Source: Proteus mirabilis ATCC 29906
Lineage (GTDB): Bacteria > Pseudomonadota > Gammaproteobacteria > Enterobacterales > Enterobacteriaceae
Assembly (NCBI RefSeq): GCF_000160755.1
Contig: NZ_GG668578.1
Location: 1 to 64,000, forward strand
DNA: 64,000 nt
Direction: 5' to 3'
The position numbers and the translations under genes are program-made. Below are positions 6,266-21,534 of this stretch, in pieces. A model generated the notes under the pieces. The model ran no database searches and was not told the origin of the DNA. It saw only the letters and a list, made by a program, of their open reading frames with translations. Numbering within the stretch: the stretch's first letter is position 1; each line of letters begins with the position of its first letter.

Positions 6266-6319
6266 ATGATGACTCACTCTTTTTTGCCATTCTTCTTTTT
6301 CTTTTTACTCTATTCTTAA
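6266..6319 (+). CDS. pheL: pheA operon leader peptide PheL
   Basis: A 17-codon frame beginning ATG ATG reads MMTHSFLPFFFFFLLYS and ends at TAA 6317-6319. It holds six Phe codons, five of them consecutive (6290-6304). It lies upstream of pheA and just before an attenuator hairpin, as pheL does in E. coli ([15 protein letters not shown]). Ribosome stalling at the Phe codons when charged tRNA-Phe is scarce would keep the attenuator open. The start could be either ATG (6266 or 6269). It is too short for ordinary gene callers. Confidence 0.9.
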   Translation: MMTHSFLPFFFFFLLYS

Positions 6320-6320
6320 A

Positions 6321-6388
6321 GAGGCTTTGTTTATTTCAGAAAGAAAAGTAAGAACGACAATAGCCTCCAAAAATGGAGGCTTTTTTAT
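6321..6388 (+). promoter_or_regulatory. pheA transcription attenuator
   Basis: The terminator stem is AGCCTCC (6362-6368) with GGAGGCT (6375-6381), followed by TTTTTTATTT. GAGGCT (6321-6326), directly after the pheL stop, is complementary to AGCCTC (6362-6367) and can form the competing antiterminator. A ribosome stalled on the Phe run leaves 6321-6326 free (read-through), while one at the stop covers it (termination). This is the classic 2:3 versus 3:4 arrangement. Confidence 0.85.
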
Positions 6389-6424
6389 TTAAAATGGTAC
6401 GAGACAAAAGTATAGGGCACTAAC

Positions 6425-7675: not shown

Positions 7676-9019
7676 TTATAAAAAACCATACATAGCAGCA
7701 AATACCCAGCCAAAAATACAAGAAACAGTAACACCAATTAATCCCGGTAAAATAAAGCTATGATTAATAACAAAACGACCTATACGTGTTGTTCCTGAAC
7801 GGTCAAATTGGATAGCGGCTAAATCACTGGGGTAAGTAGGAAGAATATAATAGCCATAACACGCCGGTGCTGAAGCAACAATATAGGCAGGATCAATACC
7901 AATACCTAAAGCCAAGGGAACTATTGCGGCTAATGCGGCGGCTTGTGAATTAACAAACTTAGAAACAAGTAATAAGACAACGGCATAAGCCCAAGGATAC
8001 TCACGAACTAATTGTCCTAATGCAGCTTCTATTTCTTTCATATGTGCAGAGAACATGGTTTCTGCCATCCAAGCAATACCATAGACCGCCACAATGGCTA
8101 TCATACCGGAGCGAAAAACTTCATTTTTAGAAATAAGTGAGGGATTAGTTTTACAAATAATAATAATAGAAGCGCCCGCTAATAACATAAACATTTGAAT
8201 AACTAATACCATAGATAATGGTTTATTATTAAATACGGGACGTAATTCAGAAAATGCACCTAATACAGCAACAACCGCAATCGCACCTAAGAATATCCAC
8301 ATTGCTACCCAATTTTTCATTGGTAATTTTTTATCTAACAATGTTGCAGTATCACCATAAACGTAATCATGATTCTCTGGTATGGAAATAAAATCTTGGA
8401 AGCGCTGATCTTTATCTAACTCTTTACCTCTAAACCAGCTAAAAATCCCAATGGCTAAAATACCAATAAAGGTTGATGGAATGGTAATCGCTAATAAATC
8501 TAAAAACTCAAGATGCTTACCATTAAAAGTGACATTACCTAACATTGCCACTAAGGTGACGACCGCAACAGATACAGGACTTGCGATAATTCCCATTTGT
8601 GAACCAATGGTACTGGCTGCCATCGGTCTTTCTGGACGAATATTATTTTTAATCGATACATCATAGATAATAGGCAAAATGGTATAAACCACATGTCCAG
8701 TACCACATAATATAGTCAGGGTACAGGTAACGAGAGGTGCAACAATAGAAATATACTTCGGATTTTTTCTTAATAATTTTTCAGCTATTTGCAACATAAC
8801 ATCTAAACCACCCGATGCTTGTAACGTTGCAGATGCAGAGACGACAGCAATAATCACTAACATCACATCGACAGGCGGTTTACCCGGAGGTAAATTAAAA
8901 ATAAAGACTAAAATAACCAGCCCCACTCCGCCTAATAGACCTAATGCAATTCCCCCTTTCCTTGCTCCATAAAATAAACAAACTAATATAATGGCTAGTT
9001 GTATTATAAAATCCATCAT
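7676..9019 (-). CDS. dcuB: Anaerobic C4-dicarboxylate antiporter DcuB
   Basis: Inner membrane carrier exchanging fumarate, malate or aspartate for succinate during fumarate respiration. The 447 residues are strongly hydrophobic with about 10-12 membrane segments. Runs such as [20 protein letters not shown] and [17 protein letters not shown] are DcuA/DcuB family signatures, and the sequence resembles E. coli DcuB (446 residues) more than DcuA. In E. coli dcuB is controlled by FNR and DcuSR; I see only a weak half FNR site upstream (TTGAT at 9140). It sits alone here between pheA and tyrA, a context different from E. coli where it neighbours fumB. Confidence 0.94.
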
Positions 9020-9404
9020 TAACCCCTTAAAAAACGCATCGGAATAGAAATAAAAAATAATACAATTAAATCGTTAGCACTTTTTGCAAAAAAACAACGT
9101 CGACCAATATAATTTACGGCATCTGTTATAGGTATTTTTTTGATCGTTGTTATAGTTTTAATATCCGTTAATTATTTTATGCAAATTTAAGATCTCACCA
9201 ACAAATAGCTTAAAAAGAAAAGACATTCTTGAACATTTATCATTAACTAATTAAACCCATAGACAACAATTACATAACAAATAAATTAAAAATAATATAA
9301 TGTTGTCATTATTAGGTGATTACTAAAAATAGAAATTTCATTCATTTTTTCTAAATGTATATTGGTTTTATTCATTGTGAATATTGAATAAGTAAGGAAT
9401 AGAT
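9020..9404. other. AT-rich intergenic region between dcuB and the small peptide genes
   Basis: The 385 bases must hold the dcuB promoter (minus strand) and a promoter for the two small peptide genes (plus strand). It is very AT-rich with several A/T runs. I see no further open frame with a ribosome site and no clear terminator. TTGAT-CGTT-GTTAT at 9140-9153 is only a half match to the FNR palindrome. Confidence 0.5.
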
Positions 9405-9560
9405 ATGCATACAATTATCATGTTACTGCTAGGTTTGAGCTATTTGAATTTCGTTGATAGTGCTCATAAAGGAAAAGGCTATTACTCCTATTCATTAGAT
9501 CACCATATAAGTTCAACTCGCTGTACCGTAAGCCCATGCCCCGTTCCGAAAGATTATTAA
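9405..9560 (+). CDS. Small putative secreted peptide A (51 residues, STRC-x3-PC tail)
   Basis: A 51-codon frame starts at ATG 9405, with AAGGAA (9394-9399) five bases before it. The first 20 residues are hydrophobic (MHTIIMLLLGLSYLNFVDSA) and could be a signal peptide ending VDSA. The remaining 31 residues are polar and end in SSTRCTVSPCPVPKDY, with two cysteines. The next gene, 29 bases downstream, encodes a similar-size peptide whose tail also reads STRC-x3-PC, so the two look like paralogs in one operon. I do not recognise the family. The paired design argues that it is real; the function is unknown. Confidence 0.6.
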   Translation: MHTIIMLLLGLSYLNFVDSAHKGKGYYSYSLDHHISSTRCTVSPCPVPKDY

Positions 9561-9589
9561 GTTATAACTATCAACGTTAGGAGAAGAAA

Positions 9590-9763
9590 ATGAAGAAATT
9601 AATTATTTTTATACTATCAAGTTTATTCGCTTTTTATGCTAGCGCTTATACTTGGGATAATAAAATCAAAGATACCAGCACTGTTAATCAGTATTGTCAA
9701 CATAATAGCAATACCCAACAATCTACTCGCTGTGTTTGGCCCCCTTGTGATGATGAGTGGTAA
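9590..9763 (+). CDS. Small putative secreted peptide B (57 residues, STRC-x3-PC tail)
   Basis: A 57-codon frame from ATG 9590 has a strong AGGAG (9579-9583) six bases upstream. The N-terminus MKKLIIFILSSLFAFYASA is a textbook Sec signal peptide with cleavage after ASA, leaving a 38-residue mature peptide. It contains three cysteines and ends QSTRCVWPPCDDEW. The STRC-x3-PC motif is shared with the gene just upstream. The mature form is small, polar and acidic at its end, so it should be periplasmic or exported, possibly disulphide-bonded. A hairpin terminator follows at 9794. I do not recognise the family. Confidence 0.72.
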   Translation: MKKLIIFILSSLFAFYASAYTWDNKIKDTSTVNQYCQHNSNTQQSTRCVWPPCDDEW

Positions 9764-9793
9764 TATTTATCGCAAGATATAACATATAAAATA

Positions 9794-9826
9794 AAAAACG
9801 AATAACATAACCTGTCATTCGTTTTT
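9794..9826. terminator. Terminator between peptide genes and tyrA
   Basis: AAAAACGAAT (9794-9803) and ATTCGTTTTT (9817-9826) are perfect 10-base inverted arms, usable from both strands: after the small peptide genes and after tyrA. Confidence 0.75.
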
Positions 9827-9867
9827 CTTACTATAAGTATTAGGTATAGCGTTTATGTATATTTATA

Positions 9868-10992
9868 CTAAATCCGGCTATCATTGGCTTTTTGTAATAA
9901 CGCACCACTCTCTTTCATAAATTGTGAAGCATAATCACCGAACCAATCACTTACATTATTAAATGAGCCAATAAATTCATCTTTTGTGTTTATATCTAAT
10001 AAGGCTATAGCTTCACCTAATGAATGATGATATCTACGGATCAAGTTAATGTTTTCTTGTGAAGATAAAATAATATCGGCATATAATTGTGGATCTTGAG
10101 CAAAGAGCCTACCAATCATCGCTAGCTCTAAACGATAGATGGGAGAAGATAATCTTAATAAACTGGCTAAATCGACATTCTCTTTCACCAAATGTTGCCC
10201 ATATGCAAAAGTAGTAAAATGTCGCAATGCTTGGATAAAACTCATATTTTTATCGTGCTCTTGTGCAGTAATAGCCTCTATTCTTGCTCCCCACACCATA
10301 AGTTGCTCAAGCAACCACTCAAAATGTGATAAATCTCGCCCTTCACAATAAGCGATAACTTGTTTTGCTAAACTTGGCACATCTGGACCAAACATTGGAT
10401 GTAGTCCTAAAACAGGGCCATTATGTGCTTTTAACATCGCCTCTAAAGGCGCTTGCTTGATTGAGGCTAAATCTACCAATAAACAATTTTCTGGCAAGGG
10501 CGGTAATTGCTCAATAACATCAACCGTTAAATGGATTGGGACACTGATTATCACCATACCAGCATCCGCAAAAATAGCCGGAGATTTACTTTGCCACTCA
10601 TCCGCTTCAAGACTTTCCACTTGATAGCCAGAAAGTGTAAAGAGACGAGAAAAAAGTCTCCCCATTTTTCCGTTCCCCCCCACAATGACAATTTTGCCTA
10701 ATTGGGGATTAAGTGTTTTAAAGCCTTTATCATTTTCTTTGCTATATGACTCTCTCATTACTCGACGTAAAACATCTTCAATTAAATCAGCAGAAATACC
10801 CATTTTTTCTGCTTCATTACGTCGAGAAGCAAGCATTGCGGCTTCTCTATCTGGTGCATAGATAGGTAACCCGTGGCGATTTTTAACTTCTCCCACTTCT
10901 GCTACCAATTGCATTCTTTTGGCGAGTAAAGAAAGCAATGTTTTATCCACCTGATCAATTTGCTCTCGCAAATTTTGTAATTCTTCAGCCAT
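9868..10992 (-). CDS. tyrA: Bifunctional chorismate mutase/prephenate dehydrogenase (T-protein)
   Basis: Makes prephenate from chorismate and oxidises it with NAD+ to 4-hydroxyphenylpyruvate for tyrosine synthesis. The 374 residues (E. coli 373) have an N-terminal AroQ mutase domain (1-about 90) and an NAD-binding dehydrogenase domain starting at [19 protein letters not shown] near residue 105, with [10 protein letters not shown] as the catalytic His loop. It lies 35 bases downstream of aroF on the same strand, forming the aroF-tyrA operon of enteric bacteria, presumably under TyrR control from the aroF promoter region. Confidence 0.98.
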
Positions 10993-19088: not shown

Positions 19089-19165
19089 GAATACGCGCAA
19101 AATGTTATCATCCCTATTTCTCTATAGAATTTATTCAGCCACACAAATTTTAGTGTGGCTTTTTT
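19089..19165 (+). ncRNA. micA: Hfq-dependent small RNA MicA
   Basis: A roughly 77-base RNA lies between luxS and gshA, opposite in strand, exactly where E. coli micA (sraD) is. The 5' part contains ACGCGCAAAATGTTATCATC, almost identical to the conserved E. coli antisense region used against ompA and other porin mRNAs. The 3' end is a terminator stem GCCACAC/GTGTGGC (19139-19145 and 19153-19159) followed by six T. A sigma-E promoter precedes it. Its expected role is to repress outer membrane protein synthesis during envelope stress. Confidence 0.87.
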
Positions 19166-20941: not shown

Positions 20942-21018
20942 TGGTGCATCCTGGAGGATTCGAACCTCCGACCGCTCGGTTCGTAGCCGAGTACTCTATC
21001 CAGCTGAGCTAAGGATGC
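20942..21018 (-). tRNA. tRNA-Arg(ACG), copy 4 in transcription order
   Basis: A 77-base cloverleaf on the minus strand with encoded CCA. The acceptor is GCATCCT/AGGATGC, the anticodon loop CTACGAA (anticodon ACG, read as ICG for CGN codons), and the T-arm GGTTCGAATCC. It is identical to the other three copies upstream. It corresponds to the argQ/Z/Y/V cluster of E. coli. Confidence 0.97.
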
Positions 21019-21061
21019 AGTCGTACTAATTTAACTAAGATAAGCTAACTTTATAAAAAGA

Positions 21062-21138
21062 TGGTGCATCCTGGAGGATTCGAACCTCCGACCGCTCGGT
21101 TCGTAGCCGAGTACTCTATCCAGCTGAGCTAAGGATGC
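21062..21138 (-). tRNA. tRNA-Arg(ACG), copy 3
   Basis: Same 77-base sequence as the neighbouring copies, with anticodon ACG and encoded CCA. A 43-base spacer separates it from the last copy. Confidence 0.97.
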
Positions 21139-21189
21139 GTCGTTATCTTTTTGCCTCTCACATTACATTGTGCAATGTCGAGAAATAAG

Positions 21190-21266
21190 TGGTGCATCCT
21201 GGAGGATTCGAACCTCCGACCGCTCGGTTCGTAGCCGAGTACTCTATCCAGCTGAGCTAAGGATGC
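21190..21266 (-). tRNA. tRNA-Arg(ACG), copy 2
   Basis: Identical tRNA-Arg(ACG) with encoded CCA. It is the first copy after an intervening terminator-like hairpin (21315-21349). Confidence 0.97.
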
Positions 21267-21314
21267 ACGTTGTTTAATTTTACTCTTTTAATGCAAATTA
21301 TTCACTATTTGCAC

Positions 21315-21349
21315 CAAAATAAAAACCCCATACATTTAATCATGGGGTT
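21315..21349 (-). terminator. Terminator-like hairpin inside the tRNA cluster
   Basis: On the minus strand, AACCCCAT (complement of 21342-21349) and ATGGGGTT (complement of 21324-21331) form an 8-base stem followed by TTTATTTT. It lies between the first and second tRNA-Arg, so it either partly terminates the serine-arginine transcript or acts as a processing signal. Confidence 0.6.
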
Positions 21350-21355
21350 GGAATA

Positions 21356-21432
21356 TGGTGCATCCTGGAGGATTCGAACCTCCGACCGCTCGGTTCGTAG
21401 CCGAGTACTCTATCCAGCTGAGCTAAGGATGC
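21356..21432 (-). tRNA. tRNA-Arg(ACG), copy 1
   Basis: Identical 77-base tRNA-Arg(ACG) with CCA, directly after tRNA-Ser (9-base spacer). Confidence 0.97.
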
Positions 21433-21441
21433 AAATCTAAA

Positions 21442-21534
21442 TGGCGGTGAGAGAGGGATTCGAACCCTCGATGCAGCTTTTGACCGCATACTCCCTTAGC
21501 AGGGGAGCGCCTTCAGCCTCTCGGCCATCTCACC
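21442..21534 (-). tRNA. tRNA-Ser(GCT)
   Basis: A 93-base class II tRNA with a long variable arm, encoded CCA, acceptor GGTGAGA and anticodon loop CTGCTAA (anticodon GCT, decoding AGC/AGU). It is the first gene of the cluster, matching serV of E. coli, which also precedes the argVYZQ genes next to csrA. Confidence 0.97.

Follow-up and report, generated by a model that had tools for sequence, protein, structure and literature searches.

Tandem genes for two short, probably exported Proteus peptides with strongly constrained cysteine-containing tails

Between dcuB and tyrA, the window (the whole analysed stretch of 64,000 nucleotides) carries two short open reading frames in tandem, here called P1 and P2. 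The initial annotation had described them as frames for 51 and 57 amino acids, 29 bases apart and each preceded by a Shine-Dalgarno site, and both coordinates and sequence agree with this description. The locus comprises the following features:

7676-9019, minus strand: dcuB, gene for a Dcu-type C4-dicarboxylate transporter (Pfam DcuA_DcuB)
9358-9363, plus strand: TATATT, possible -10 element of an inferred P1-P2 promoter (recurring block AAT[GA]TATATT)
9394-9398, plus strand: Shine-Dalgarno site of P1, AAGGA (from the sequence)
9405-9560, plus strand: P1, ATG-initiated frame for a probably exported peptide of 51 amino acids (exactly this length in 16 of 16 intact copies)
9522-9557, plus strand: conserved tail of P1, residues 40-51, CTVSPCPVPKDY in the window and CTVSPCPDPKDY in most relatives (from pN/pS)
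9561-9589: spacer of 29 bases between P1 and P2
9578-9583, plus strand: Shine-Dalgarno site of P2, TAGGAG (from the sequence)
9590-9763, plus strand: P2, ATG-initiated frame for a probably exported peptide of 57 amino acids, with A-S-A at residues 17-19
9731-9760, plus strand: conserved tail of P2, CVWPPCDDEW, residues 48-57 (from pN/pS)
9793-9827, no strand assigned: hairpin of 15 pairs with a T run, lying between P2 and tyrA and possibly terminating transcription from both sides
9868-10992, minus strand, convergent with the pair: tyrA (from the list of open reading frames)

The full translations are MHTIIMLLLGLSYLNFVDSAHKGKGYYSYSLDHHISSTRCTVSPCPVPKDY for P1 (9405-9560) and MKKLIIFILSSLFAFYASAYTWDNKIKDTSTVNQYCQHNSNTQQSTRCVWPPCDDEW for P2 (9590-9763). 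The neighbouring genes are those we take to be pheA and tyrA from sequence knowledge and the initial annotation, which had placed the pair beside dcuB in the pheA-tyrA neighbourhood. This arrangement is seen in the window, and dcuB is present at the locus in 19 of the 20 genomes of our genus set (which includes the window's own genome, G000), but in G002 the pair directly follows pheA, between pheA and tyrA and without dcuB (contig G002:C121). A link of the pair to DcuB is weakened by this genome, where P1 and P2 are kept although dcuB is absent from the locus. Among the adjacent genes, none was recognised as encoding a receptor, a protease or a transporter for the two peptides. From position 9020 to 9900 the window is identical to Proteus mirabilis H63 at 877 of 881 bases, which marks it as this species or a very close relative; two of the four differences are synonymous, one lies in a spacer base, and one changes residue 47 of P1, which is V in the window and D in H63 and in the 15 other intact P1 copies. 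Elsewhere in the window, Rfam models match a Phe_leader upstream of pheA (6271-6389), a MicA small RNA (19089-19164; 41.3 bits, just over the gathering score of 41) and five tRNA genes clustered on the minus strand (20945-21534), four of them with equal score.

An AAT[GA]TATATT block upstream of P1 is found at the same place in 15 of the 20 genus genomes (judged by eye from alignments) and may hold a promoter; TATATT at 9358-9363 was not listed by a consensus promoter scan. When up to two mismatches were allowed, FNR-like matches occurred in 13 of the 20 regions upstream of P1 (mean of 13.0 in dinucleotide-shuffled sequences) and CRP-like matches in five (shuffled mean 2.7, maximum 9), which gives no evidence of a site for either regulator, and the window's own region contains neither. 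As for the terminator that the initial annotation had placed after the pair, a hairpin with a T run does lie at 9793-9827 and is also present in the plus strand fold, but the terminator scan lists it for the minus strand alone, the side of tyrA (mean of 0.2 sites in shuffled sequences); in our reading it possibly terminates P1-P2 as well.

The sequence ahead of the start codon includes GGA in 15 of 16 intact P1 copies (exception G016) and in 12 of 13 intact P2 copies (exception G002; both by eye). Signal peptides were likewise judged by eye. The N-terminus of P2 is Sec-signal-like (MKK...FYASA), with A-x-A at residues 17-19 in nine of 13 intact copies and A or S at residue 19 in the remaining four, so that a plausible cleavage site is present in all 13. 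P1 also begins with a hydrophobic segment, of only about 12 to 14 residues by eye; K or R is absent ahead of it in 14 of 16 intact copies, and in most a clear cleavage site is lacking, which makes export of P1 less sure. The hydrophobic N-termini of the initial annotation, with the Sec-type signal that it gave for P2, are thus supported. AlphaFold models place a helix at residues 3-24 of P1 and 2-37 of P2, in the latter case spanning the expected cleavage site, while the tails are of low confidence and form no ring (mean pLDDT 65.7 for P1 and 63.7 for P2); as models they neither support nor exclude a ring.

The lack of a clear cleavage site in most P1 copies would fit a role as membrane-tethered periplasmic regulators, in which the N-terminal anchor is kept and the cysteine-containing tail adjusts the activity of an inner membrane sensor kinase or transporter, by analogy with MgrB and PhoQ. 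MgrB is a small periplasmic-facing regulator of PhoQ. The conserved cysteine pair in both tails and the invariant length of intact P1 would also suit such regulators. Yet the hydrophobic stretch of P1 is short, P2 has its plausible cleavage site in every intact copy, and neither peptide has a Pfam match up to an E value of 10, and we consider this explanation unlikely, if worth keeping in view.

The initial annotation had made the standing of the two genes depend on conservation of the frames outside the strain, and such conservation is found. P1 is intact in 16 of the 20 genus genomes, always with exactly 51 amino acids, and P2 in 13, with 52 to 58. Both are intact in 12 genomes, P1 alone in four (G012, G016, G017, G018), P2 alone in one (G019) and neither in three (G008, G013, G015). 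A single-query search with P1 reached 16 of the 20 genomes at E <= 0.001, including the broken copy of G019 and missing the intact one of G002; in profile searches at E <= 1, P1 matched 18 and P2 19 of the 20 genomes.

The lesions, most of them read by eye, are diverse. P2 of G016 has a -1 frameshift beside its start, and that of G018 has one base added in a run of A, so that its unchanged tail is out of register with the usual ATG by one base. This genome has an open reading frame of 51 residues that begins at an internal TTG, from which translation is possible; this copy was left out of the intact count. In these two species, G016 and G018, a single base at an A run directly after the start codon puts P2 out of frame and leaves the tail unchanged; frameshifts at A runs could reflect sequencing error, recent loss or slippage. 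P2 has a changed start codon, a frameshift and an insertion in G017 and has acquired a stop and lost both cysteines in G012; P1 of G019 has a stop within its tail, and both genes are damaged in G013 and G008. In G015 (contig G015:C30) the P1-P2 coding segment is gone and the upstream flank and the hairpin before tyrA are kept. Frame-breaking changes, which the initial annotation had regarded as a sign against the genes, thus do occur, with frame-breaking or tail-losing lesions in eight of 20 genomes, but both frames are intact in the other 12. Loss of the intact pair in eight genomes by differing lesions suggests that the pair is dispensable. At the same time, the conserved frame, length and tail lead us to reject chance open reading frames, and the comparison supports P1 and P2 as real genes.

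Selection acts very unevenly along both peptides. In P1, pN/pS was 0.42 in the signal region, 0.59 in the middle and 0.016 in the tail (tail pS 0.62, pN 0.010) for 14 copies, that is, the intact ones minus the divergent G002 and G014, and 0.53, 0.77 and 0.027 for all 16 intact copies. The corresponding values for P2 were 0.41, 0.79 and 0.081 for ten copies, from which G002, G010 and G014 had been omitted because of differing length or register and in three of which a trailing R had been trimmed; the first seven codons of the P2 tail gave 0.033 over all 13 copies. All of these ratios are uncorrected Nei-Gojobori proportions, several of the genomes are close relatives, and the pairs compared are not independent. 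Amino acid entropy tells the same story, with 0.11 (P1) and 0.12 (P2) bits in the tails and 1.31 and 1.13 bits in the rest, and none of 100,000 random draws of columns was as conserved as the tail of either peptide. The constraint on the tail proposed in the initial annotation is therefore supported, and in P1 it extends to the last residue. The drift of the middle while the last dozen residues stay the same suggests, at the level of sequence, that function resides in the tail.

Codons of the P1 tail often differ synonymously between genomes (168 of 424 same-residue comparisons among nine genomes), and the constraint there is therefore on the protein. An RNA element is disfavoured by this synonymous change together with the fold of the locus, which was nothing unusual (z +1.3, with a fold as good or better in 90 of 100 shuffles), and the lack of any Rfam match for the pair up to an E value of 1. 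In the P2 tail (9731-9760), synonymous sites vary less than in the rest of P2 or in the P1 tail (57 of 335 comparisons among ten genomes, with 157 of 560 in the signal region and 125 of 537 in the middle), which may be chance.

The motif shared by the two tails is shorter than the STRC-x3-PC initially annotated. Both tails contain C-x3-P-C and then a D, which adjoins the second cysteine in P2 and stands one residue further on in P1; the exceptions are V47 of the window's P1 and CVWPLC in P2 of G007. Before the first cysteine, STR is common to both peptides in G000 and in none of the other 19 genomes. R precedes the first cysteine in 14 of 16 intact P1 copies (H in G002 and G014) and in only three of 13 intact P2 copies (G000, G005, G019). 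Besides CVWPLC, variants of the P2 tail include an extra C-terminal R (G004, G007, G009) and the ends DVW (G010), DDW (G014) and DDEI (G002). Recognition of the end of P2 is thus not strict, and the extra R disfavours recognition of a C-terminal carboxylate of the PDZ type. In a profile-profile comparison P1 and P2 matched over 46 columns (probability 95.6%, E 1.3e-8), a score to which the hydrophobic N-termini contribute, and BLASTP aligned ten residues around the motif only (E 0.002); the old duplication put forward in the initial annotation is therefore probable on sequence grounds.

Both cysteines are present in all 16 intact P1 and all 13 intact P2 copies, near acidic residues, and CX4C might be a redox or a copper/zinc site of periplasmic thiol or metal-binding peptides. 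We regard this as highly improbable, as it leaves the conserved T, V, S, W, P, K and Y around the cysteines, and the difference between the two tails, unexplained. A signal sequence followed by a variable middle and a conserved C-terminus, the proline-rich WPP and CPDP tails and the position of P1 just upstream of P2 recall nascent-chain arrest or leader peptides such as SecM and VemP, whose C-terminal residues act in the ribosome exit tunnel while the signal sequence senses export. Against this analogy, no plus strand gene follows P2 before the convergent tyrA, where the hairpin lies, P1 is conserved to its last residue, and there is neither a special RNA fold nor an Rfam match. Moreover, P2 is intact where the P1 tail has a stop (G019), and P1 is intact where P2 is broken (G012, G016, G017), which together make arrest peptides very improbable.

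Searches against databases are consistent with the statement of the initial annotation that no described family has this tail. Neither peptide matched a family in Pfam-A (scanned up to E 10) or NCBIfam, and PDB sequences gave nothing of weight: none matched P1, and the best match of P2, to PDGF-B through VWPPC (E 0.83), was put down to chance. Against PHROGs, P1 had no match and P2 had five weak ones (best E 0.0021), all ending at or before residue 47 and none covering the conserved tail. A phage origin was rejected, with only two Pseudomonas phage records for P1 (E 0.3) and none for P2, as was a plasmid origin, for which the only matches in a plasmid collection were two Proteus mirabilis records taken as chromosomes. 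These records, NZ_OL790811.1 and NZ_OL790812.1, are chromosome-like in size (4.08 and 4.09 Mb). One P. mirabilis record is blank at the locus, but it carries only 45 features in 4.08 Mb, and the blank is uninformative on annotation. A literature search, in which subscription journals are thinly covered, found nothing for locus tags PMI0386-0393 (guessed), for HI4320 dcuB or for CVWPPC/CTVSPC, and among the listed titles on small proteins and swarming or on small open reading frames and ribosome profiling, none names the locus.

Searches of 60 relatives with single queries had no match below an E value of 0.025 outside the genus. The P1 profile matched G000 and G002 strongly among 198 family genomes and 19 others at E 0.01 to 0.1, where about 20 chance matches are expected at the limit used; some of the weak matches reach tail columns (e.g. 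G141, positions 12-46, E 0.011). None of those outside Proteus was called a relative, although a very divergent one may be among them. Among 394 order genomes, with at most 16 candidates scored per genome, the P2 profile gave a strong match in G000 and matches at E 0.002 to 0.02 in 22 further genomes; 21 of these 22 extend no further than position 46 and miss the tail, and the remaining one (G332, positions 3-53) contains a stop. A P2 scan of genome contigs confirmed one of 351 candidate stretches, in Fonticella tunisiensis, which was put down to signal-sequence similarity (residues 1-25). A tyrA gene was matched in 135 of 196 family genomes, and among the 28 best-scoring non-Proteus tyrA loci, which were inspected, pheA and tyrA are convergent with less than 170 bases between them in 21, about 1 kb apart in five and with pheA out of reach in two. 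C-x3-P-C near a stop codon occurred four times at these 28 loci, in no case with a signal-like hydrophobic start in the residues inspected (by eye). In the family and order samples, which hold few species per genus, no convincing relative was thus apparent, and as far as these sequences go the family is seen only in Proteus; we infer that the Proteus line gained the pair.

Small size, probable export, restriction to one genus and repeated loss would fit antibacterial peptides, unmodified and microcin-like, directed against kin or competitors. However, the neighbours dcuB, pheA and tyrA provide no immunity or export gene, the P2 end is acidic, and the tail is nearly invariant across species. 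Competition peptides usually diversify. We therefore judge a microcin-like role quite improbable.

Two frames with ribosome sites, hydrophobic N-termini, a drifting middle of about 20 to 28 residues and a C-terminal core of 10 to 12 residues under strong purifying selection are the sequence-level basis of the reading we prefer. A CX4C motif in an exported peptide is expected to be oxidised by DsbA. This layout and the expected ring favour a model in which the peptides are exported and bind a conserved partner through their CX4C loop and acidic tail, a reading we hold tentatively and at somewhat less than even confidence. P1 and P2 would be paralogous, Proteus-specific peptides made from one short bicistronic transcript and exported by Sec; signal peptidase I would free P2, while P1 might be freed or left tethered by its N-terminus. 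DsbA would then close CX4C into a six-residue ring, C-TVSP-C in P1 and C-VWPP-C in P2, and the ring with its acidic or aromatic end would dock on a conserved partner, located in the envelope or outside the cell; the drifting middle would be a spacer or pro-region. As ligands, the peptides would be either a signal or modulators of an envelope protein, and the trait would be dispensable and probably condition-specific or social, in agreement with its repeated loss. A more speculative and rather improbable extension is an undescribed system of Proteus for cell-to-cell signalling or self-sensing, in which P1 and P2 would be the two peptide ligands and each would offer its six-residue disulfide ring and acidic tail to a conserved receptor of its own; the system might have a part in swarming or in life with the host. 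Should the tails prove to be ligands, Proteus would possess an unrecognised pair of exported peptides whose active part of 10 to 12 residues is short, chemically simple and synthesisable, and could be used as bait for the partner. Regardless of such a role, the locus holds two conserved genes small enough to escape notice.

Several known systems resemble P1 and P2 in part. MgrB shares a length of about 50 amino acids, a hydrophobic N-terminus and a conserved cysteine pair in the C-terminal part, which in P1 and P2 is probably exported, but P1 and P2 are a genus-restricted tandem pair without a Pfam match, their CX4C spacing lies close to the C-terminus, and P2 has a plausible signal peptidase site. 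SecM and VemP likewise combine a signal sequence with a conserved C-terminal stretch; in contrast to these, P1 and P2 are much shorter, their cysteines are conserved, the constraint on P1 reaches the last residue, and no regulated gene lies downstream of P2, only P1 having a downstream gene, namely P2. The Phr-type precursors of Gram-positive bacteria show the same order of signal sequence, drifting middle and conserved C-terminal core, whereas P1 and P2 are Gram-negative peptides with no Pfam or NCBIfam match, a disulfide-capable ring in the core and no recognised receptor gene nearby. Finally, urotensin II and octreotide are animal or synthetic molecules with which no homology is claimed, but in shape they offer a CX4C ring of equal size, and in P2 there is likewise a Trp inside the ring.
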